A stretch of DNA of 64,000 bases from Pseudoalteromonas shioyasakiensis (GTDB taxonomy: Bacteria; Pseudomonadota; Gammaproteobacteria; Enterobacterales; Alteromonadaceae): positions 1,756,001 to 1,820,000 of the forward strand of contig NZ_CP077770.1 in NCBI RefSeq assembly GCF_019134595.1. The letters are read 5' to 3'. Position numbers and translations under genes: made by a program. The notes beneath the pieces were generated by a model, which was given only the letters and a program-made list of their open reading frames with translations, ran no database searches and was not told the origin of the DNA. Positions 4,034 through 57,195 of the stretch are shown in pieces. Within the stretch, counting starts at the first letter, position 1, and the number at the start of each line of letters is the position of its first letter.

Positions 4034-5776
4034 ATGGATCAAACTACATCCCAAATCTATAAGCGATTAATCAGTTATGTGGGTGATTATAAGTTAATCG
4101 CGTTTTTCGCCATTGTAGGCATGATTGGCTATTCAGCCATGGATGCATTGTTTATCAATTTAATGAAGCCGTTCATTGATGAAGGTTTAAATGATCGTAA
4201 CACTGATGTTTTAACTTATGCACCATTTGTTGTGATTGCATTGGTATTAGGTCGTGGCATGTTTAACTATATGTCGTCGTACTGTTTAAGTTATGTTGGC
4301 TCTCAAGTTGTAAGAACGTTGCGCCAACAATTATTCGAACATATTTTACATCTGCCGGTGTCTTTTCATGATAAGAATTCAAATGGCGATTTAATCTCTA
4401 AAATCACCTTCGATACCGAGCAGGTTCAACAGGCAATAACTAAAGCCCTGTTAATTGTTGTAAGAGAAGGGGCGTTTGTTGTTTTCTTACTTTTTAATAT
4501 GTTTTATACCAGTTGGAAGCTGTCACTGATATTTTTAGTGATTATTCCGCTGGTGGCCGTGATCGTTGCCTTTGTTTCGAAACGTTTTCGTATGATTTCG
4601 AAAAAAATCCAATCTGCTATGGGTCAAGTAACTCGCAGCTCAGAGCAAATGCTATCTGGTCACAAAGTGATACATGGCTTTGGTGGTCAAAAGCAAGAGA
4701 TAACGCAGTTTTCGGCTATTAATAATCATAATCGCCAGCAGCGCATTAAAATGGATGCGACCAAAGCGTTAAGTGTTTCTGTAATTCAAATATTAGCGGC
4801 AAGCGCGATGGCCGTGATTTTATGGGTTGTGTCTATGCCGTCAATGATTGATACCATAAGTTCTGGCGACTTCGTATTACTTATTTCATCAATGATGATG
4901 TTACTGCGTCCACTTAAGCAACTTTCAAACGTAAATAGCGACTTACAACGTGGTATTTCTGCAGCGCAAAGTATCTTTTTAGTACTTGATGAAGAAGTAG
5001 AAAAAGACACAGGTACTTACAGCGTTGATAAAGTTACGGGAAAAATTGAAGTAAACAATGTGACCTTTAAATACCCAACGAAAGATGAGCCAGTATTAAA
5101 GAATTTATCACTTTCGATTAATGCCGGTGAAAGTATTGCGTTAGTGGGCCGTTCTGGTTCAGGTAAATCGACCATCTCAAATTTATTACCACGTTATTAT
5201 GAGCTTGAAGCTGGCAGTGAAATTTTGCTTGATGGCGTCAATATCGCTGATTACAAACTGACAGACTTACGTAAGCAATTTGCACTGGTTTCGCAGCAAG
5301 TGGTTTTATTTAACGACACCATAACTAATAACATTTGCTATGGCCTCGACCGCGAATTAACAAACGAGGAGTTAATGGCGGTTGCCAAGCAAGCACATGT
5401 TTGGGAGTTTGTTAAAGACTTACCAGAAGGTTTAGATACCATGGTGGGTGAAAACGGCGTAATGTTATCAGGCGGTCAGCGTCAGCGTATAGCCATTGCC
5501 CGAGCAATATTAAAAGATGCCCCTATTTTGATACTTGATGAAGCGACATCTGCTCTCGATACTGAATCTGAAAAATTGATCCAGCAAGCACTTGATAGCT
5601 TAATGAAAGAAAAAACATCGATTGTGATAGCACACCGTTTATCAACAATAGAAAACAGTGATTGCATTTATGTCATCGACCATGGTCAAGTTATCGAAAA
5701 GGGCACACATAGCGAGCTTCTTGAAAAAGACGGTACCTATAGTGCGTTATGTAAGATGCAATTTGGTGAGCAGTAG
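4034..5776 (+). CDS. msbA: Lipid A export ATP-binding/permease protein MsbA
   Basis: MsbA is an inner-membrane homodimeric ABC exporter that flips core-lipid A to the periplasmic face. The 580-residue half-transporter has six membrane helices in roughly residues 1-310. The nucleotide-binding domain has Walker A GRSGSGKS at 372-379, the signature LSGGQ at 478-482 and a Walker B ILILDEATSALD near residue 500. Length matches the E. coli protein (582). It precedes lpxK with a one-base overlap, the conserved msbA-lpxK order, which separates this essential copy from the second MsbA-like protein at 49421-51184. A GAGAG-type ribosome site lies just upstream of the ATG. Confidence 0.95.
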   Translation: MDQTTSQIYKRLISYVGDYKLIAFFAIVGMIGYSAMDALFINLMKPFIDEGLNDRNTDVLTYAPFVVIALVLGRGMFNYMSSYCLSYVGSQVVRTLRQQLFEHILHLPVSFHDKNSNGDLISKITFDTEQVQQAITKALLIVVREGAFVVFLLFNMFYTSWKLSLIFLVIIPLVAVIVAFVSKRFRMISKKIQSAMGQVTRSSEQMLSGHKVIHGFGGQKQEITQFSAINNHNRQQRIKMDATKALSVSVIQILAASAMAVILWVVSMPSMIDTISSGDFVLLISSMMMLLRPLKQLSNVNSDLQRGISAAQSIFLVLDEEVEKDTGTYSVDKVTGKIEVNNVTFKYPTKDEPVLKNLSLSINAGESIALVGRSGSGKSTISNLLPRYYELEAGSEILLDGVNIADYKLTDLRKQFALVSQQVVLFNDTITNNICYGLDRELTNEELMAVAKQAHVWEFVKDLPEGLDTMVGENGVMLSGGQRQRIAIARAILKDAPILILDEATSALDTESEKLIQQALDSLMKEKTSIVIAHRLSTIENSDCIYVIDHGQVIEKGTHSELLEKDGTYSALCKMQFGEQ

Positions 5777-6753
5777 TGAGTGTTATTGAAAAAAGCTGGT
5801 ATAAAAAGCCAGGGTTACTCAGCGTTCTGCTGTTACCTTTCAGTTTGCTTTTTTGGCTTATCTCAACGCTTCGTGCTTTGTTATATAAGTTTAATATACT
5901 AAAAGCATTTAAAACGCATCTTCCTGTCATTGTTGTTGGTAACATTAGTGTCGGTGGAAACGGCAAAACGCCATTTGTTATTTGGCTTGCTGAGTACTTA
6001 CAGCAGCAAGGTTTAAAAGTGGCTGTGATCAGTCGTGGTTATGGTGGTCAGTCTGATTCGTATCCTTTGTTAGTGACTGAACATACGAGTACAGCGCAAG
6101 CTGGTGACGAACCAGTACTTATTAAACGCCGCCTAGGTTGTGTTGTAATGGTTGGCCCTGACCGACAAGCCAGTATAAAAAAATTAGAGCAATATGATAT
6201 CGATGTCATTATATCTGATGATGGCATGCAGCATTATAAAATGGCGCGTGATATCGAATGTTGCATTGTTGATAGTGAACGCCAATTTGGTAACGGTTTA
6301 TTAATGCCTGCAGGTCCACTTCGTGAAACCAAAGCGCGCTTAAAATCGGTTGATTTAGTCATCGAAAATGGTGGCAACGCACTAAGCCGCTATGATTTAA
6401 CATCAAGCCCATTTCGAACTGTGAGTAATTCAGAACTTGCCAATTCAGTTCAAGATAAAGGCCATGCAGTCAGTGCTATTGGTAATCCCAAACGCTTTGA
6501 GATAAGTCTTGAGCAGCAAGGCATAAACTTGCTATCTACTCATCATTTTCGTGATCATTATGCCTACCAAGCAAGTGACTTTAGCGATTTTGCAGATGAC
6601 GCCGTATTTATGACAGAAAAAGATGCAGTTAAATGCTTTAGTTTTGCTAAACCAAATTGGTATTATTTGCCTGTTGATGCAAAACCAACAGCAGCAGTTA
6701 TCGAAAAACTTAATTTATTATTAAAACAAAAAGGGATCCTCAATGGCCTTTGA
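5776..6753 (+). CDS. lpxK: Tetraacyldisaccharide 4'-kinase LpxK
   Basis: LpxK phosphorylates the 4'-position of the tetraacyl-disaccharide to make lipid IVA at the inner membrane. The 325-residue protein has an N-terminal hydrophobic anchor at about residues 14-32 and the P-loop variant [13 protein letters not shown] near residues 55-68. The kinase core includes [16 protein letters not shown]. The start is GTG sharing its first base with the msbA stop (TAGTG), indicating translational coupling. The 3' end overlaps ycaR by 11 bases. The gene belongs to the msbA-lpxK-ycaR-kdsB operon for lipid A and Kdo synthesis. Confidence 0.94.
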
Positions 6754-48250: not shown

Positions 48251-48288
48251 TTGTTGCGAAAATAGCAGATTGTTGCGAAAATAGCAGA
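48251..48288 (+). repeat. Two tandem 19-base repeats upstream of the ACP gene
   Basis: TTGTTGCGAAAATAGCAGA occurs twice with no gap, ending 30 bases before the ACP start. Position and two-turn periodicity (19 bases) suggest a regulator-binding site or an mRNA leader element. No known operator was recognised. Confidence 0.7.
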
Positions 48289-48318
48289 CATCAATGAATC
48301 ATCTTTTAGGTAATGTTT

Positions 48319-48564
48319 ATGCAAATCACCCAACAACTAAAACAAATTCTAGCTCAAGTGCTCAATATCGATACATCGGATTTCACTGAAAATACACCTT
48401 TGTTAGGTGCAATCCCAGAATTTGATTCCATGGCTATCATGACTTTGTTAATGGAGTTAGAAAATCAATTCAGCTTTTCTATTAGCAATGCTGAATTAGA
48501 AGCAGAGCAATTCGAGTCTGTAGCGTCACTACAGCAATTTATTTCACAACAAGCTAACGACTGA
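48319..48564 (+). CDS. Acyl carrier protein of the Alm-like operon
   Basis: An 81-residue carrier protein. The phosphopantetheine serine is S37 in EFDSMAIM, the DSM/DSL motif, and three or four acidic helices surround it. The ATG at 48319 has AGG eight bases upstream; an ATG at 48313 would sit too close to it. The gene opens a five-gene operon with an LpxL/AlmG-like acyltransferase, MsbA-like exporter, AMP-forming ligase and PLP decarboxylase. In Vibrio, AlmF plays the carrier role between ligase AlmE and transferase AlmG. In exosortase-A loci a similar ACP accompanies the ligase and decarboxylase. Which amino or fatty acyl group it carries is unknown. Confidence 0.88.
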   Translation: MQITQQLKQILAQVLNIDTSDFTENTPLLGAIPEFDSMAIMTLLMELENQFSFSISNAELEAEQFESVASLQQFISQQAND

Positions 48565-49409
48565 TGAATAATTATTCCAAGCGCAATAAAGTCAAAGGAC
48601 TACTTATCAGCATGTTCTTGGCAGGCTTTAAAAAATTGAGCCGATCATCGAGACGAAAACTCTGCTTTAGCTTAGCTAGGACCGTGCTGAAACTAGCAAA
48701 CAAAACCCGGCATCGTGGTATAGCTAATATTAGTGCTGCTATGCCTCATTTAACTGAGCAAGAAGTTGAGGCTCTGGCGTTCATTTCATATCAAAACATC
48801 GTTTTTGGTGTAGTGGAATGTTTTTATTTAGACCAAGTCGATTTTGAATACCAGATTAGTGCAGAAGCCGATGCTATTTTAAAGCAAGGTCAAGGGGCTA
48901 GTGTGGCTACCATGCATATGGGCTGTTATGAAGTTGTTCCCTTTGCTATGCAGGTTTTAACAAAGCGATCTAGCACGTTATCAAAGATCCCAGTGTTTAT
49001 GCCCGATGGTAAAAAGATATATCGCGAGATGGGAATAGATTGTATTGATAAAAACGACTCAGACAGTTTGTTTCAGCTGCTAAAAGCTATCAATAATAAG
49101 CAGGTCGTCAGCCTGCATTCAGACCATTACGCAAAGGATACACAGCTAACATTTTTTGGACGTGAAACTGGTGCGCCATGCGGTGCAGCAATATTGTCAG
49201 CATACGGCAAGGTACCTTTGTTACTTAGCTTTGCTATTTTGCAACCAAATGGTGCTTACAAAGTATATGTAGAAGTGATTAGAGATACTCAAGTTGAGAC
49301 TAATACAGACAGCATTCACAAAGTGACATGTGAGATATATCAAAGATTTGAACAGATCATTACAGAGTACCCGGAGCATTGGTACTGGTCTTATAAACGC
49401 TGGCGATAA
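48564..49409 (+). CDS. LpxL/AlmG-type lysophospholipid acyltransferase superfamily protein
   Basis: A 281-residue membrane-associated acyltransferase of the LpxL/LpxM (LABLAT) superfamily. The HX4E catalytic motif is H118 to E123 in MHMGCYE. SLHSDHYAKDTQLTFFGRETGAPCGAAILSA is the second conserved block, visible here from about residue 180. The end YPEHWYWSYKRW matches the PEQWxWxHKR-type tail of LpxL proteins. A hydrophobic, basic N-terminus suggests binding to the inner membrane. It overlaps the ACP stop by one base. By analogy with AlmG, it could move an aminoacyl or acyl group from the ACP to lipid A or another lipid. The acceptor is not evident. Confidence 0.85.
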   Translation: MNNYSKRNKVKGLLISMFLAGFKKLSRSSRRKLCFSLARTVLKLANKTRHRGIANISAAMPHLTEQEVEALAFISYQNIVFGVVECFYLDQVDFEYQISAEADAILKQGQGASVATMHMGCYEVVPFAMQVLTKRSSTLSKIPVFMPDGKKIYREMGIDCIDKNDSDSLFQLLKAINNKQVVSLHSDHYAKDTQLTFFGRETGAPCGAAILSAYGKVPLLLSFAILQPNGAYKVYVEVIRDTQVETNTDSIHKVTCEIYQRFEQIITEYPEHWYWSYKRWR

Positions 49410-49420
49410 CAGGAGTAAAT

Positions 49421-51184
49421 ATGTCTAGTCACAATTTGAGCCAGCAACCCACATTAGCGCGTTTATTGACTTATTTCTCCGAACACAAGTTTTTGTTATG
49501 TTTGGCTTTCTTATCGACCATTATCTTTAGTGCTGTCGATGCAGGTATGGTGTATTTGATCAAGCCACTTATCGATAATGGTTTGGCTCAGGCCAATGGC
49601 CAGGTGCTGAAAATAGGGGCTTTATTTGTAGTGGTCATCTTCTTTATAAGAGGTATTGCTAGCTTTGTTTCGAATTATAGCTTGGCTTATATCAGTAGTA
49701 AGATCACTTATAAGATCAGGGAGCAAGCTTTTGAACATTTGCAATTTTTGCCAATGAGTTATTTGCAAGAGCACAGTTCGGGTCAGATCATAGCCAAGTT
49801 TACTTATGATGCAGAGCAAGTGGCAAAAGCCATGGCGGAAACTATGTTGGTGTGCTTGCGAGAATCACTGATAATCTTAGTGCTGATCGCTATTATGTTT
49901 TACACTAGTTGGCAACTGTCTTTGATTTTCTTTGTTATTGCTCCTGCTATTGCTTTTGTGATTACTCGCGTCTCTCGCCGTTTCAAAGATATTAGTAAAA
50001 TATTGCAAGACGCTATGGGTGAAGTGACTCGACAATGCGAGCAAAGTGTAGCCAATCATAGAGAAGTCTTAGCCTTGTCCACCCAAGCACAAGAACTGCA
50101 AAGGTTCGATACGGTCAATAATCACAACCGTCAGCAAACGATGAAATTAGCGTCAGCTTCTGCCATGTGCAACCCGATTGTTCAGTTGATAGCTTCTTTG
50201 GCTATGGCTATAGTTTTTTACCTAGCCAGTGTTGAAGGCATAGTCGAGAGTTTGAGTGCAGGGAGCTTTACCGCCACATTGGTGGCTATGGGGTCTTTGT
50301 TGAGACCGCTTAAACAGCTCACGAATATTAATCAGAACCTACAAAGGGGATTGGCAGCGGCACAAAGCTTGTTTCAATTTTTAGATCTGCCTAAGGAATG
50401 CGATAGAGGCGAGCAAAACATAGAGTTTCAGCATGAATTACAGTTAAAAAATGTCAATTTTTGTTACCCTCAAAGTACACAAACTGTACTCAAAGAAGTG
50501 AGTTTTACTCTGAGAAAAGGCAAGAAACTGGCGATTGTCGGCGAATCAGGCAGTGGTAAAAGCAGTTTGCTGAACCTGTTATTGCGCTTTTATCGAGCTG
50601 AGCAGAGACCGGATTCCTTTATTACCCTTGATGGTACTGAGCTGCAACAAATTTCACTGCAAAATTTGCGTAAACAATTTTCTTTGGTATCACAACAGAT
50701 AGTGCTATTTGATGACTCGATTGCAGCTAATATTCGCTATGGCTGTGAGACAAACGTTTCACCTGAACAAATTGAAGCCGCTGCCAAGGCCGCTCATGTG
50801 TGGGATTTTGCTCAACAGATGGCTATGGGTTTAAATAGTCCTGTAGGGGAAAATGGCAACTTGTTATCTGGTGGTCAAAAACAGCGAATAGCCATTGCCA
50901 GAGCTATTCTCAAAGATGCGCCAATTTTATTACTGGATGAGGCTACCTCAGCTCTAGATAGTAAATCAGAAGCACAAATACAGCGTGCATTAGAACAATT
51001 GCAAAAAAACAAAACTAGCATAGTTATCGCCCATAGGTTAAGCACTATACGTGATGCTGACCAGATCCTAGTGATGAGCCGAGGCGAAGTGGTTGAGCGG
51101 GGTCAGCACAGCCAGCTTATTGCGAACAAAGGTAATTATTATCAATTATATCTACAACAAATCCTGTCTAAAGAGGAAGCATAA
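49421..51184 (+). CDS. Second MsbA-like ABC lipid exporter
   Basis: A 587-residue half-transporter, clearly similar along its length to the MsbA at 4034-5776 but diverged. Shared segments include MFYTSW, NNHNRQQ and LSGGQ(R/K)QRIAIARAILKDAPI. Walker A is GESGSGKS at residues 374-381 and the D-loop and H-loop are intact (DEATSALDS, IVIAHRLSTI). It lies inside the operon between acyltransferase and ligase, with a one-base overlap to the ligase gene. Its codon use differs from the first copy, with many more TTG leucine codons. A dedicated flippase for the operon's lipid product is the natural inference. Confidence 0.88.
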   Translation: MSSHNLSQQPTLARLLTYFSEHKFLLCLAFLSTIIFSAVDAGMVYLIKPLIDNGLAQANGQVLKIGALFVVVIFFIRGIASFVSNYSLAYISSKITYKIREQAFEHLQFLPMSYLQEHSSGQIIAKFTYDAEQVAKAMAETMLVCLRESLIILVLIAIMFYTSWQLSLIFFVIAPAIAFVITRVSRRFKDISKILQDAMGEVTRQCEQSVANHREVLALSTQAQELQRFDTVNNHNRQQTMKLASASAMCNPIVQLIASLAMAIVFYLASVEGIVESLSAGSFTATLVAMGSLLRPLKQLTNINQNLQRGLAAAQSLFQFLDLPKECDRGEQNIEFQHELQLKNVNFCYPQSTQTVLKEVSFTLRKGKKLAIVGESGSGKSSLLNLLLRFYRAEQRPDSFITLDGTELQQISLQNLRKQFSLVSQQIVLFDDSIAANIRYGCETNVSPEQIEAAAKAAHVWDFAQQMAMGLNSPVGENGNLLSGGQKQRIAIARAILKDAPILLLDEATSALDSKSEAQIQRALEQLQKNKTSIVIAHRLSTIRDADQILVMSRGEVVERGQHSQLIANKGNYYQLYLQQILSKEEA

Positions 51185-52764
51185 TGCGTACTTTGTTACA
51201 TCAACTCATTAGCCATCAAGCGAGTATTTTGCCGGAGTTGCCAGCTCTAGGTTGTAAAGAAGTATGGCTGTCTTATGCTCAACTTCAGCAGCGAGTAGAG
51301 CAAGTGACTCAAGCTTTGTTGAGTTGTGGTTTACAAACTCAACAAAGGGTAGCCATTTATTTGCCTAAAGAGATAGAAGCCGTACTCGCCATGTTTGCTA
51401 CGAGTTGTGCCAGAGGGATCTTTGTACCTATAAACCCAGTGTTAAAAGCAGCACAAGTGACCCATATTCTAAAGGACAGCGAAACCAGTATTCTGATTAC
51501 TAACTTGTCTAGATGGCGTACTTTAGCAGAGCAGAAACCTACGTCGGTTGAGCTAGTTGTAGTACTTGATTTACCCGAACATGAACAAACTGACAGAGTG
51601 ATAACTTGGCAGGCTTTTATGGCTTCAGGAAAAAATCAAGCGCTGCCGGTCGGGTTGGAAACGGACTTAGCCGCTATTTTGTATACCTCTGGTAGTACAG
51701 GGAAGCCAAAAGGAGTGGTTCTATCTCAACGCAATATGGTACTAGGAGCAGCGAGTGTTGCGCAGTATTTGGATAGCCGAACTACAGATAGAATGTTAGC
51801 TGCGTTACCACTGAGTTTTGATTATGGTTTTAGCCAGTTGTCTATTGCCTTCACAGTTGGTGCGAGTTGTTACATGATGGAGTTACTGTTTCCTCAAGAT
51901 ATTATTTTGGCGGTTGAGCGAGAGCGAATAAACTGTTTGGCCTTAGTCCCCCCTATGTGGATAAAACTTGCTAGAGTACAATGGCCTGAGAAGGTAGCCA
52001 AGCAGATTCGATATTTCACTAACTCGGGTGGCGCTATGCCTATACCGGTGCTACAACAACTTCAACAGCAATTGCCCGAAGCTGAACCTTACATGATGTA
52101 CGGGTTGACTGAAGCATTTCGTTCTTGTTACTTGCCACCCAAAGATATTTCCAGCAAACCAGGCTCTTTCGGCAAGGCTATTCCCAACGTAGAATTGCGT
52201 GTAATTAATGAGTTTGGCGCAGAGTGTCGGGCTAATGAAGCTGGTGAACTCGTTCATTTTGGTCCTTTAGTAAGTCAAGGTTATTGGAATGACAAAGAAA
52301 AAACGTTAGAGCGATTTAAACCTGTACCTGCCACTTTGCCTATACTGAGGCAGCAAGTCGGTGTTTGGTCTGGTGATATTGTTACAAGGGATGAAGAAGG
52401 TTACTTTTATTTTGTCGGCCGCAACGACGAAATGATCAAAACCTCAGGTTATCGAGTTAGCCCAACAGAGTTGGAAGAAGTTATATACCAATCTGGTTTG
52501 ACTCTAGAAGCTGTGGTACTTGGAGTTCCCCATCCTGAGTTAGGGCAAGGTATCGTATTATTGGTTGTGTTGGATCCGAGCAAAGCGACTTGTGTCTCTC
52601 TAATTCAAAACCTATGCCGATCACAGTTGCCTAATTACATGCAGCCTAAGTCTGTGATCGCCTTAGATACATTGCCGCGCAACGGCAATGGCAAGATAGA
52701 TCGTAAAGCCTTATTGAGTCAATATCAACAACACTTTGCAATTAAGGAGGGAAGCTATGAGTGA
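51184..52764 (+). CDS. AMP-forming acyl/aminoacyl ligase (exosortase-A-associated TIGR03098-like)
   Basis: A 526-residue ANL-superfamily adenylating enzyme. Core motifs are intact: LYTSGSTGKPKGV at 166-178, YGLTEAFRSCY, SGDIVTRDEEGYFYFVGRNDEMIKTSG in part, and the catalytic lysine K504 in NGNGKIDRKAL. SFDYG near residue 211 sits at the A4 position, where amino-acid-activating domains carry an Asp that binds the amino group. This hints at an amino acid substrate. The best family match I recall is the acyl-CoA ligase linked to exosortase A loci, but no exosortase is here. It probably loads its substrate onto the operon's ACP, as AlmE does for AlmF. Confidence 0.85.
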   Translation: MRTLLHQLISHQASILPELPALGCKEVWLSYAQLQQRVEQVTQALLSCGLQTQQRVAIYLPKEIEAVLAMFATSCARGIFVPINPVLKAAQVTHILKDSETSILITNLSRWRTLAEQKPTSVELVVVLDLPEHEQTDRVITWQAFMASGKNQALPVGLETDLAAILYTSGSTGKPKGVVLSQRNMVLGAASVAQYLDSRTTDRMLAALPLSFDYGFSQLSIAFTVGASCYMMELLFPQDIILAVERERINCLALVPPMWIKLARVQWPEKVAKQIRYFTNSGGAMPIPVLQQLQQQLPEAEPYMMYGLTEAFRSCYLPPKDISSKPGSFGKAIPNVELRVINEFGAECRANEAGELVHFGPLVSQGYWNDKEKTLERFKPVPATLPILRQQVGVWSGDIVTRDEEGYFYFVGRNDEMIKTSGYRVSPTELEEVIYQSGLTLEAVVLGVPHPELGQGIVLLVVLDPSKATCVSLIQNLCRSQLPNYMQPKSVIALDTLPRNGNGKIDRKALLSQYQQHFAIKEGSYE

Positions 52765-53980
52765 ATTTGACCGCTTGTCTAGACTAACTCAAACTAATAA
52801 TCAATTGTTAATGGCGGGTAAGACTGTCGAACAAATCAAACAAATAGCACCTTGCTTCCCTTGTTATGTATACGAAAGGGAAGCAATTACCCGCCAGATA
52901 AATTATGTAAAACAGCATTTACCTCGTCAGGTTAAGTTACATTACGCGATAAAAGCGAACCCCATGCCAGCTCTGGTTTGTCATATAGCCCAATATGTAG
53001 ATGGTCTCGATGTGGCATCTCATCGGGAAATGATGTTGGCTTTGTCTACCGGTATGTCCGCTGATAAGATAAGCTTTGCTGGGCCTGCAAAGTCGCAACA
53101 AGAGCTAGCCGCTGCCATTGCAGCAGGTGTTGTGCTTCACGTTGAATCGGTGACTGAGTTACAGCGAATTGCTCTATGTGCCGAAGTCATGGCGACTTGT
53201 GCTAAAGTGGCAATACGAGTTAATCCGGACTTTACCTTGAAAGGTGCGGGCATGAAAATGTCCGGCGGTGCGAAGCCTTTTGGTATAGATGCTGAACTAT
53301 GTGCCCAAGTAATACGTCAATTTAATAATGATCTTATTGAAGTGATCGGGCTGCATATTTTTAGCGGTTCGCAAACGCTTAGTGAAGAACACCTCAGTTC
53401 AATGCAACGGCAAACCTTAGCTCTCGCGGTAAAAATATGCACTGAAGCCGAATTGATACCTAAGCAAATTAACATAGGTGGAGGATTCGGTATCCCTTAT
53501 TTTTCCAGAGAAACCGCGCTAGACCTCCCTCTTATTTGTCAAGCTTTGCAGTGCCATTTAGCGACACTGCCAGAGTGTTTAGCGGAAGTTGAGATTCACT
53601 TGGAGTTGGGGCGTTACTTGGTCGCAGAAGCGGGGACTTACTTGTGTGAAGTGACAGATAAAAAAATATCTAGAGGGCAAACGTTTTTGATGACAAATGG
53701 TGGGATGCATCACCATTTAGCGAACTCTGGAAACTTTGGTCAAGTAGTGAGGAAAAACTATCCTGTGATCCTTGCCAATCGCGTTGAGTGCAGTGATGTT
53801 GAACAAGTGGAAATTTGCGGCCCTTTATGCACGCCCTTGGATATAGTAGCGGCAAAAGTAACTTTGCCGAAAGCTGAAATAGGCGATGTAATTGCAGTTC
53901 TACAATCCGGTGCCTATGGTGCTAGTGCAAGCCCATGCAACTTCTTGAGCCACCCTGAAGTGACGGAGCTTTTACTTTAA
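52757..53980 (+). CDS. PLP-dependent decarboxylase, alanine-racemase fold (TIGR03099-like)
   Basis: A 407-residue fold-type III PLP enzyme of the diaminopimelate/ornithine decarboxylase class. The PLP lysine is K66 in HYAIKANPMPAL. INIGGGFGIPY binds the phosphate. ICGPLCTPLD supplies the cross-subunit catalytic cysteine and GAYGASAS the C-terminal tyrosine. The ATG at 52757 follows GGAGGGAAGC and overlaps the ligase end by eight bases. It lies far from lysine genes, so a biosynthetic lysA role is unlikely. With ligase and ACP adjacent, decarboxylation of an amino acid held on the ACP is plausible. BtrK does this in butirosin synthesis. Confidence 0.85.
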   Translation: MSEFDRLSRLTQTNNQLLMAGKTVEQIKQIAPCFPCYVYEREAITRQINYVKQHLPRQVKLHYAIKANPMPALVCHIAQYVDGLDVASHREMMLALSTGMSADKISFAGPAKSQQELAAAIAAGVVLHVESVTELQRIALCAEVMATCAKVAIRVNPDFTLKGAGMKMSGGAKPFGIDAELCAQVIRQFNNDLIEVIGLHIFSGSQTLSEEHLSSMQRQTLALAVKICTEAELIPKQINIGGGFGIPYFSRETALDLPLICQALQCHLATLPECLAEVEIHLELGRYLVAEAGTYLCEVTDKKISRGQTFLMTNGGMHHHLANSGNFGQVVRKNYPVILANRVECSDVEQVEICGPLCTPLDIVAAKVTLPKAEIGDVIAVLQSGAYGASASPCNFLSHPEVTELLL

Positions 53981-54003
53981 TCCAGCAAAGGTGACAAAAA
54001 TAT

Positions 54004-54040
54004 AAAAAGAGCACTATTCATTAAGAGTATGGCTCTTTTT
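54004..54040 (+). terminator. Intrinsic terminator after the five-gene operon
   Basis: AAAAAGAGC pairs with GCTCTTTTT, with a 19-base apical part and a terminal T-run, 24 bases after the decarboxylase stop. Confidence 0.75.
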
Positions 54041-54437: not shown

Positions 54438-55746
54438 GACTCTGTAACTAAATCTGTGTAACTGCCTATTATTAATCCTTAAAAAGGGTTTAGGATAGGC
54501 AATGATGAATAAGAAAGAACTGGAAGCGTTTGCTAAGCAAGCTGCTAAATCAATTAAGTCAGAAGCAGATTTAACTGACTTTCGTAAAATGTTAACCAAG
54601 GTGACGGTTGAAGCAGCACTCAATGCTGAATTAGACGAACACCTTGGTTATGCTCGTCATGAGCAGTCTGAGCAACAAAATTCCCGAAATGGTTATTCAG
54701 CTAAAACCATTCGAACCGAAGATGGTAAAGTTGAATTAGATACACCTCGTGACCGAGATGCTAGCTTTGAGCCGCAACTGGTTAAAAAGAACCAAACTCG
54801 CTTTACGTCAATGGACGACAAGATTTTGTATCTATATTCCAAAGGCATGACGACCCGTGAAATCGTTTCTACGTTCAAAGAAATGTATGACGCTGATGTA
54901 TCACCAACACTGATTTCTCGTGTCACAGATGCCGTTATCGCTCACGTCGTAGAATGGCAAGCTAGGCCACTTGATGCTGTTTACCCAATCGTCTATCTCG
55001 ACTGTTTAGTTGTTAAGGTTCGCCAAGATAAGCAAGTCATCAATAAGGCCATTTACTTAGCCTTAGGCGTTAATATAGAAGGCCACAAAGAACTGCTTGG
55101 CATGTGGATATCAGAGAACGAAGGCGCTAAGTTCTGGCTAAACGTGCTAACAGAACTTCAAAACCGTGGCGTTAAAGATATCCTTATCGCCTGTGTTGAC
55201 GGCCTTAAAGGCTTCCCTGATGCAATTAATACCGTTTATCCTGATACGCAAATTCAGCTCTGTATCGTACATATGGTGCGTAATTCATTGAAGTTCGTGC
55301 CGTGGAAAGACTACAAGGCCATCACGGCTGATTTAAAGCGCATATACCAATCGGTAACTTAAGACGAAGCCTTAATGGCTTTAGAACAGTTCGAGCAACG
55401 CTGGGATAGCAAGTACCCTAATATATCTCGCTCATGGCGCAATAATTGGCAAAACGTCAGCACCTTATTTAATTACCCCGAAGATATTAGAAAAGCTATT
55501 TACACTACCAATGCCATTGAATCGCTGAACTCAGTTATCCGTAAAGCCATCAAAAAGCGTAAGCTGTTCCCGCATGATGACTCGGCTAAAAAGGTCGTTT
55601 ACTTGGCTATTGAGCAGGCATCAAAAAAATGGACGATGCCGATAAGAAATTGGAAATCGGCCTTAAATCGATTTATGATTGAATTCGAAGACCGATTAAA
55701 AGATGTTATTTAAAACTGGCAGTTACACAAAATGTGTTACAGGGTC
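54438..55746 (+). mobile_element. IS256-family insertion sequence, 1,309 bp
   Basis: The element has 29-base terminal inverted repeats (54438-54466 and 55718-55746) that agree at 24 positions; both contain TGTGTAACTGCC at their inner end. GGTTGCTG is duplicated directly at 54430-54437 and 55747-55754, the 8-bp target duplication typical of IS256. The only gene is a mutator-type transposase with one nonsense codon. The intact duplication and repeats indicate a fairly recent insertion that later lost activity. Confidence 0.93.
54502..55713 (+). pseudogene. IS256-family transposase with one in-frame TAA
   Basis: The full frame spans 404 codons including its terminal stop, the normal IS256 transposase length. 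A single TAA at 55360-55362 (codon 287) splits it in RIYQSVT-stop-DEALMALEQF, with both parts in the same frame. The likely ancestral codon is GAA or CAA. DDE residues are visible: VYLDCLVVKVR, ACVDGLKGFPDAI, and the Glu in TNAIESLNSVIRK downstream of the stop. The first product would lack the catalytic Glu, so the element is not expected to move by itself. Confidence 0.93.
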
Positions 55747-55807: not shown

Positions 55808-56275
55808 TTAGCTTACCTTTACTCCCATATCAATAAATACTCTTTTATGATCATCACTCAAACCGCAATACTCATCTATTTCTTCAATACCAAGTTGAAA
55901 TAGTCTCTCGATATCTTTTGCATAAGTGAAATCAAGAAATTCTAGCTTCTTTAAATTTACCATTATTTCTACACCTGAAAATGACTTGATTGCAAACTCA
56001 TTTCCTTCTCCATCCAAATTAGGCATAATTAGGTGATGAGTTTTACAACACTCCCCAGAGAGAAGAGTAATTTTTTCAAATTGTTTCTCAGTTATATTAA
56101 TTGCAAGTAACTGCTTTTCTATCTCAGGAATACAATCAAACCATTCATACTTTGGATTCTCTCCGAATACCAACTTATCCAAGTTTTGTTCATCAATAGC
56201 ATCTATTTGTTTTTTTATTTCATTATCATCATAGTACAAACTACCTAGAGCTAATAATTTCAAATTGTTATCCAT
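55808..56275 (-). CDS. Unknown cassette protein
   Basis: A 155-residue acidic protein of no family I recognise. It contains short leucine-rich stretches (NLKLLALGSLYYDD, VNLKKLEFLDFTYAKDIERL) spaced like irregular LRR-type units, and CCKTHH near the middle. The ATG at 56275 has AGGAGG nine bases upstream, better placed than a TTG at 56284. The stop codon TAA lies in AGCTAAC at 55807-55813, a possible attC left core on the minus strand. attC 5 lies immediately upstream. It is therefore a reverse-oriented integron cassette gene. Confidence 0.75.
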   Translation of the reverse strand: MDNNLKLLALGSLYYDDNEIKKQIDAIDEQNLDKLVFGENPKYEWFDCIPEIEKQLLAINITEKQFEKITLLSGECCKTHHLIMPNLDGEGNEFAIKSFSGVEIMVNLKKLEFLDFTYAKDIERLFQLGIEEIDEYCGLSDDHKRVFIDMGVKVS

Positions 56276-56294
56276 GTAAAACAACCTCCTTGTA

Positions 56295-56421
56295 AGCTAA
56301 CGCCGCGTTAAGTGGTGAACAACGCGACCACCAAATCTAAACCAATGTACCGTAGACACTAAAGCTGATTCAAACCAAAAATGCCAAGCGTTGTGACCCC
56401 ATCTTAACCGCTTTGTTAAGC
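56295..56421 (-). other. Integron attC site 5, reverse orientation
   Basis: On the minus strand the 127-base site runs from GCTTAAC (56421-56415, including the NYN stop codon) to GTTAGCT (56301-56295). Inner blocks are GGTCACAACGCTTGGCA on the left and CGCGTTGTTCACCACTTAACG on the right. This is a classical attC layout with a long variable centre. Confidence 0.88.
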
Positions 56422-57195
56422 AGCTTTTCTCTGGTCTCGGATATAGACATCAACGATACCAGAACCAGGATCCCTACGATCTACCTCAAATAACTCTGTG
56501 GCTTCAATTAACTGAGTTAGTGTATTGAAACCATAGTTTTTTGGACTAAAGTCTGGATACTGTCGCTTGATTAAGCTTCCACAAGTAGCTAGCAGTGACC
56601 AACCATTTTCATCTTGATATTCACTTGCCGCTCCGCGGAGAGTATTTACAAGTTTGGTATCACCTCTTAACTTGTTACGTAATTCCCTAGACTCGGGCTT
56701 TTTGAGTATCACTGTACTTTGCATTGAGGTTTCTTCTTTAATCGCATAACGATCTTTCAATACTTCGGTATAAATAAAGTCATCACATGCATTTCTAAAT
56801 GCAATTGGCGTTTTCTTTTCACCAACACCAAATACATAAATCTCAGATTCCTTTAACCTAGATGCAAGTTTAGTGAAATCACTGTCACTACTAATTAAGG
56901 CAAAGGCATCATACTTATCAGAATAAAGTAAATCCATCGCATCAATAATCATTGCAGCATCAGATGAGTTTTTGCCTTGTGTATAGGAAAATTGTTGAAT
57001 TGGATTTATAGCAAGTTCGTTTAGTGGTTGCTTCCAGTTTTTCAAACAGCCGGAGCTCCAGTCCGCATAAGCTTTTTTAACTAATATATGTCCATGCTTA
57101 GAAAGCTCTTTTAGTACATAATCTAAAACGGCATATTGCGCGTTTTCAGCATCAATGAGAACCGCTATCTTCTTTTCTGAATTTATATCTATCAA
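56416..57195 (-). CDS. NYN domain protein with C-terminal LOTUS/OST-HTH domain (putative ribonuclease)
   Basis: A 259-residue protein. Residues 8-145 form a NYN (PIN-like) domain with acidic residues D15 in AVLIDAENAQ, D79 and D85 in NSSDAAMIIDAMDLLY, and D104/D106 in ISSDSDFTKLA. These are expected metal ligands of the nuclease. Residues about 170-245 (LRNKLRGDTKLVNTL; GWSLLATCGSLIKRQYPDF) resemble the OST-HTH/LOTUS RNA-binding domain. The combination predicts an RNA-processing or RNA-degrading enzyme. The gene sits between two reverse attC sites and its stop lies inside one, so it is cassette-borne. A defence role is possible but not shown. Confidence 0.85.
   Translation of the reverse strand: MIDINSEKKIAVLIDAENAQYAVLDYVLKELSKHGHILVKKAYADWSSGCLKNWKQPLNELAINPIQQFSYTQGKNSSDAAMIIDAMDLLYSDKYDAFALISSDSDFTKLASRLKESEIYVFGVGEKKTPIAFRNACDDFIYTEVLKDRYAIKEETSMQSTVILKKPESRELRNKLRGDTKLVNTLRGAASEYQDENGWSLLATCGSLIKRQYPDFSPKNYGFNTLTQLIEATELFEVDRRDPGSGIVDVYIRDQRKAA

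Follow-up and report, generated by a model that had tools for sequence, protein, structure and literature searches.

An operon of five genes in Pseudoalteromonas shioyasakiensis, carried on a stretch of 64,000 nucleotides (nt) of contig NZ_CP077770.1 (positions 1,756,001 to 1,820,000; hereafter the window, numbered from its first letter), is judged slightly more probable than otherwise to decorate a lipid, most likely lipid A, with an amine-bearing acyl group and to export the modified lipid. The genome carrying the operon comprises 4.72 Mb in two contigs. The open reading frames (ORFs) all lie on the + strand between 48313 and 53980, and the gaps between them are, in order, -1, +11, -1 and -8 bases, in agreement with the first-pass annotation, which had described five packed or overlapping genes in one direction and in this order:

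48313 to 48564, + strand: acyl carrier protein (ACP), 83 amino acids (aa), phosphopantetheine site FDSM, PF00550 38 bits
48564 to 49409, + strand: LpxL-superfamily transferase, 281 aa, H118-x4-E123
49421 to 51184, + strand: second MsbA-type ATP-binding cassette (ABC) exporter, 587 aa, TIGR02203
51184 to 52764, + strand: adenosine monophosphate (AMP)-forming ligase, 526 aa, TIGR03098, with the VinN-like substrate triad D213/S281/R313
52757 to 53980, + strand: fold-III pyridoxal phosphate (PLP) decarboxylase of the BtrK/VinO type, 407 aa, TIGR03099

The simplest account of all five parts would be beta-alanyl (or gamma-aminobutyryl, GABA-type) aminoacylation of lipid A with export by a dedicated flippase, as suggested by the protein families, the ligase triad, the kinship with BtrK, the catalytic dyad of the transferase, the exporter residues and the gene order. 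The ligase would adenylate an aspartate-like amino acid at its side-chain carboxyl and load it on the ACP, and the PLP decarboxylase would strip the alpha-carboxyl on the carrier to give beta-alanyl-ACP (or GABA-ACP). The LpxL-type transferase would then place the omega-aminoacyl unit on one of the hydroxyls of lipid A, after which the modified lipid would be flipped outward by the second MsbA. The amino acid, the order of these steps and the acceptor are inferred, and the benefit would be positive charge on the outer membrane. The overall interpretation given in the first-pass annotation is partly supported by this analysis, in that amino-acid-type activation, on-carrier decarboxylation, the transferase superfamily, the second MsbA and the conservation of the set have sequence evidence, and the exosortase label was not retained.

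The ligase scored 678 bits against TIGR03098 (cut-off 592) and 242 bits, below the cut-off, against the amino acid adenylation domain model. The best match of its substrate half (188 aa) in the Protein Data Bank (PDB) was VinN (3WV4/3WVN, 71 bits), with gramicidin synthase at 65 bits, and D213, S281 and R313 of the ligase align with D230, S299 and R331 of VinN. Passages of PMC7756342 propose that this Asp (alpha-amino) and the Ser and Arg (alpha-carboxyl) recognise beta-methyl-aspartate, the beta-carboxyl of which is adenylated, and describe the triad as conserved in BolO. Among TIGR03098-type ligases, D213 and R313 were invariant and position 281 was S or T in 18 of 18 (the window's included), and S/T plus R at the triad positions was found in none of the 17 other AMP-forming ORFs of the loci examined. 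Left out of these counts were L080_86 (gapped at the triad) and L069_1100 (the window's own copy); L083_260, in which the triad is present at 391 bits against TIGR03098, was counted with neither group. From the VinN-like substrate half it is predicted that the ligase should activate an aspartate-like amino acid through its side-chain carboxyl and not through the alpha-carboxyl, which refines the amino-acid-type activation proposed earlier. L-aspartate is the most likely substrate, the candidates being aspartate, glutamate and 3-methyl-aspartate. A ligase acting on fatty acids alone was disfavoured by the Asp and Lys that we take to belong to motifs A4 and A10, together with the VinN triad, and this triad also appears to argue against an AlmE-like activation of glycine.

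The decarboxylase scored 545 bits against TIGR03099 (cut-off 478), and both family assignments, which had been put forward for checking by profile search, were borne out. Its best PDB match was BtrK (2J66, 232 bits), followed by a chain deposited as a probable diaminopimelate (DAP) decarboxylase (143 bits), and plainly named DAP decarboxylases gave 113 bits or less. The motifs GPLCTP and GGMHHH are common to the operon enzyme and BtrK, and the LysA-type enzyme of the genome (L117) reads GPVCETGD, EPGR and AGMND. A decarboxylase of free diaminopimelate (LysA) was disfavoured by the score against TIGR01048 (224.7 bits, below the cut-off of 297.9) and by the differing CE, EPGR and AGMND motifs. 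VinO and BtrK decarboxylate carrier-bound substrates according to passages of PMC11284099 and PMC7857480, and in the latter BtrK is a glutamyl-carrier decarboxylase that leaves GABA as a thioester on its carrier BtrI. This kinship is consistent with decarboxylation on the carrier, as the first reading of the sequence had it. The triad and the decarboxylase would explain each other, because such a decarboxylase needs a free alpha-amino acid head.

The ACP scored 38.2 bits against PF00550 (gathering score 20.8). A transferase profile search of the genome collection gave 23 loci, and a carrier-like ORF lies directly 5' of the transferase in 22 of them, as well as in the window and in locus L084 of the same-genus genome G031. 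The rule behind this count was loose (position, 55-130 aa, [DK]S motif); 10 of the 22 carriers were recognised by sequence search, and the remaining 12, all from Colwellia, rest on the rule. Four of these 12 were scanned against PF00550 and none was over the cut-off (13.7 to 20.7 bits). The phosphopantetheine site reads KS in the 12 Colwellia carriers and DS in the others.

The transferase scored 74 bits against PF03279, above the gathering score, has the H-x4-D/E motif and the fold of LpxM (LpxM and PatA ranked first in the fold search, which leaves room for other families), and its E123 aligns with the catalytic Glu of LpxM, so that its placement in the LpxL superfamily held. No relative was found in one viral-contig scan or in PHROGs, and a viral origin was set aside on these searches. 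The H-x4-E motif and the fold would equally suit an LpxM-like fatty acyl transferase that serves lipid A from ordinary AcpP, with a separate ligase and decarboxylase merely co-transcribed; besides the transferase the genome has one strong PF03279 protein (283 bits; the third has 27.5). Such a role is quite improbable, given that the transferase is present in only four of 108 genomes of the genus, that a carrier-like gene stands directly 5' at nearly all loci, and that in Colwellia the loading enzymes vary around a constant carrier-transferase-exporter core. The weak PF03279 protein lies on the second contig (G000:C2:885177-889593) near two carrier-protein matches, perhaps as part of another acyl-carrier cluster.

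The exporter scored 651 bits against TIGR02203 (MsbA; cut-off 602). It is a second MsbA, as had been claimed, because a housekeeping copy is encoded in the same window, outside the operon:

4034 to 6753, + strand: housekeeping msbA-lpxK pair, for contrast

The second copies of MsbA found in 13 genomes all fell in one clade (Shimodaira-Hasegawa-like approximate likelihood ratio test, SH-aLRT, 100), apart from the 15 housekeeping copies of these genomes and with Escherichia coli MsbA at the base of that clade (SH-aLRT 87). In addition to the curated cut-off, the operon exporter shares with housekeeping MsbA the residues that contact Kdo2-lipid A. Passages of PMC10945598 list R78, R188, R238, K243 and K299 of E. 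coli MsbA as contacting headgroup parts of this lipid; all five are present in the window exporter and occur together in 12 of the 13 second copies. Taken singly, R78, R148, R238, K243 and K299 are found in all 13 and R188 in all but one. Housekeeping MsbA has Q at the E. coli R148 position in five Colwelliaceae genomes (L090, L092, L093, L094, L097), the second copies of which keep R. An alternative of some weight, but a doubtful one, is that some other lipid of the membrane (a phospholipid or a glycolipid) receives the aminoacyl group and is flipped by the second MsbA in place of lipid A; an exporter over the curated MsbA cut-off and the joint retention of the five contact residues speak against it.

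A further alternative is a small exported metabolite or lipoamine, in which the LpxL-type enzyme would join the omega-aminoacyl-ACP to a fatty acyl group and the product would leave by the ABC protein. Natural-product pathways are known to use VinN-type triads and BtrK-type decarboxylases, and the same ligase/decarboxylase pair stands beside a TIGR03694 acyltransferase in two loci, L074 and L077; against this, the operon is without a polyketide synthase (PKS), a non-ribosomal peptide synthetase (NRPS) module or a second carrier, and its exporter is MsbA by curated cut-off, with the Kdo2-lipid A contact residues, so that this alternative is unlikely. In L074 (7390-12950, Thalassotalea) and L077 (7134-11888, Colwellia) a separate TIGR03098/TIGR03099 pair lies between a patatin-like gene (below cut-off) and the TIGR03694 acyltransferase (over cut-off), and in L074 a ThiF-like gene comes next; this arrangement hints at N-acylation of a carrier-made amine. 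A TIGR03099-type decarboxylase is also found near other adenylation enzymes in L083 (genome G034) and in L080 (G066, a second copy in P. aurantia), perhaps in other natural-product clusters, and one ligase of L083, below the TIGR03098 cut-off at 391 bits, carries the VinN triad together with the K that precedes it.

Six distinct operons share the five-gene order: those of the window, of L084 and of four of the 23 loci (L045 of P. denitrificans, L049 of Algicola, L051 of P. aurantia and L067 of an uncultured Colwellia). Four of the six belong to Pseudoalteromonas-type genomes. The order of the window is not due to chance, since it recurs in five other genomes, and the set is conserved outside the strain, a point for which the first-pass annotation had looked to a survey of gene neighbourhoods. 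Carrier, transferase and exporter alone make up three loci (Thalassotalea L047, Alteromonadaceae L048 and Kangiellaceae L050), the genomes of which each have one TIGR03098 and one TIGR03099 gene side by side elsewhere. Twelve loci, all of Colwellia, combine an ordinary amino-acid adenylation enzyme, which lacks the VinN triad, with a small carrier-like ORF, the transferase and the exporter, and no decarboxylase was found within the stretch examined around each. The Glaciecola locus L046 has the transferase without carrier or exporter. The flanks of nine operon loci (six five-gene, three three-gene) were mostly unshared, with a handful of pairs between loci in an all-against-all comparison (E 1e-8), of which the strongest were L045 with L084 (269 bits) and L048 with the window (220 bits).

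The ligases of the six five-gene operons form one clade among the 18 (SH-aLRT 99). The uncultured Colwellia ligase is nested among those of Pseudoalteromonas (SH-aLRT 81 to 98 on the branches concerned), which suggests lateral transfer. A single clade of five-gene transferases was not obtained (four changes, at least three of them forced). The system is rare, being present in four of 108 genomes of the genus (E up to 1e-40) and in one of 369 genomes of the class sample, the window's own. TIGR03099 was over the cut-off in five of 36 genomes (the window's and 35 same-genus relatives), four of the five being transferase-bearing. Transferase-related protein clusters numbered 25 by single sequence, 25 by profile (E 1e-20) and 32 together, and reach Roseateles and Rhodocyclaceae; alignment A1 holds the window copy as first row and 23 of 25 matches, P0121 (the window's own) and P0145 (200 aa) being left out. 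We tentatively propose, at somewhat less than even confidence, that carrier, transferase and MsbA form a transferable core on which different amino-acid-loading modules are grafted, together with a new lipid A modification in which beta-alanine or GABA would be made on the carrier, attached to lipid A and exported by a specialised MsbA paralogue.

Several observations weigh against the proposed modification of lipid A. At full length the ligase's PDB matches are in the order gramicidin synthase (267 bits, two domains summed), malonyl-CoA synthetase (175) and VinN (155), and among NCBIfam models TIGR03098 is followed by subfamilies of fatty-acid-CoA ligases, below cut-off at 301 (cut-off 476) and 297 bits; such a subfamily as second-best match, with malonyl-CoA synthetase outscoring VinN, also counts against the rejection of a fatty-acid ligase. 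ELGR and GPLCT are also found in L118, another paralogue in the genome, and these parts of the motifs are therefore not peculiar to BtrK types. Of 23 related genomes, 20 have a TIGR03099 match (E up to 1e-80), and this spread, with the TIGR03694 neighbours in L074 and L077, means that the ligase/decarboxylase pair has other uses. The transferase matched 12 NCBIfam models (LpxL/LpxM/LpxP), none at cut-off (best 59.1 against 248), and its kinship is uninformative. The exporter residues discriminate only in part, since a contrast ABC paralogue (L071) has three of them (R78, R188 and K243); another (L070) has none of the five. Three Burkholderiales loci (L060, L063 and L066) have carrier and transferase with the exporter not alongside. 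The 12 Colwellia transferases form one clade, and the exchange of loading enzyme therefore counts as one event. The five-gene decarboxylases were not resolved as one clade (two changes in the tree). No description of the five-part system was found among the matches listed (titles and abstract starts) in open-licence literature, nor any biochemistry or lipid analysis of a member.

The first-pass annotation had also noted that ligases and decarboxylases of these types occur together near exosortase A genes. Membership of an exosortase A (PEP-CTERM) system would be in keeping with scores over the TIGR03098 and TIGR03099 cut-offs and with the exosortase found in G082, one of the six five-gene genomes, but is scarcely credible, as no PF09721 match was obtained in five of the six, the window's included, and it was rejected as unsupported in those five. 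With no exosortase detected in the genome (PF09721, 0 matches), the 'exosortase A system-associated' names describe no role here at the sensitivity of that search. The operon pair belongs to the same curated families as the exosortase A-associated pair and differs from it in that no exosortase was detected in the genome and in the separate clade formed by the ligases of the six operons.

The remaining features of the operon lie at its two ends:

48251 to 48288, + strand: perfect tandem repeat, 2 x 19 nt, ending 24 bases 5' of the first start codon
54002 to 54042, + strand: terminator-like hairpin, -21.3 kcal/mol, z -4.85, T run in the 3' arm

The 5' limit set in the first-pass annotation, 48251, coincides with the first copy of the repeat, and the terminator that it placed at the operon end corresponds to the hairpin, which was missed by a simple terminator consensus scan of the window. 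The 19-nt repeat has two matches in the window against 0.02 expected in shuffles, and its 14-base core was found in four of 127 loci, all copies of the window locus, and was absent from the other operons examined; it may be an operator or a recent duplication. The decarboxylase starts with ATG at 52757, preceded by AAGGAGG. A TTAC-N5 tandem array resembling a CpxR box, first noticed by eye, was then scored in 24 upstream regions and gave p 0.025 or less in five (L084, L062, L045, L055 and L057); TTAC units at 10-base spacing stand 5' of the ACP in L084, and 0 of 200 shuffles were as good in L084 and L062. The window's own array gave p 0.35, and therefore a common CpxR-like regulatory site is not claimed. 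Downstream of the operon, a Mutator-type (PF00872) transposase is encoded as two adjoining ORFs (286 and 112 aa; 54438-55746) with ends of 39-nt inverted repeats that are 77% complementary, and an NYN plus OST-HTH/LOTUS domain protein on the - strand (55808-57195) adjoins a DUF6892 gene.

In Vibrio cholerae, the AlmEFG ligase, small carrier and LpxL-superfamily transferase glycylate lipid A, the ligase activating glycine through its carboxyl. The operon resembles AlmEFG in joining a ligase, a small carrier and an LpxL-superfamily transferase, the likeness of the transferase being at superfamily level, and differs from it in the VinN-like substrate half, the added decarboxylase and the MsbA of its own; the Colwellia loci, with an ordinary adenylation enzyme, are closer to AlmEFG than the five-gene operon is. 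BtrJ, the loading ligase of butirosin, is of a different kind from the operon ligase. The operon is like BtrK-BtrI (butirosin) in that BtrK is the nearest solved relative of its decarboxylase, and unlike it in that the Btr product goes to an aminoglycoside. With VinN-VinL-VinO (vicenistatin) and, as proposed, BolO-BolC-BolN (bolagladin), it shares a side-chain-carboxyl adenylation enzyme with the D/S/R triad, a stand-alone ACP and, by prediction, on-carrier decarboxylation, but those systems pass the group to a PKS or NRPS, whereas the partner here is an LpxL-type transferase with MsbA. A known relative exists for every part (Vin, Bol and Btr for loading, Alm for the logic of transfer, MsbA for export), and it is the combination that was not found described.

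If the proposed modification is correct, an amine would be put on a lipid without transfer RNA, an aminosugar or glycine, and there would be a possible reason to keep a second, specialised MsbA. The 'exosortase A' ligase/decarboxylase pair would gain an assayable chemistry, namely attachment of an aspartate-like amino acid to a carrier through its side chain and then decarboxylation, and the use of another loading enzyme in Colwellia allows a direct test of specificity. The charge of the outer membrane could bear on antimicrobial peptides, phage adsorption and the cold or salt tolerance of marine bacteria.

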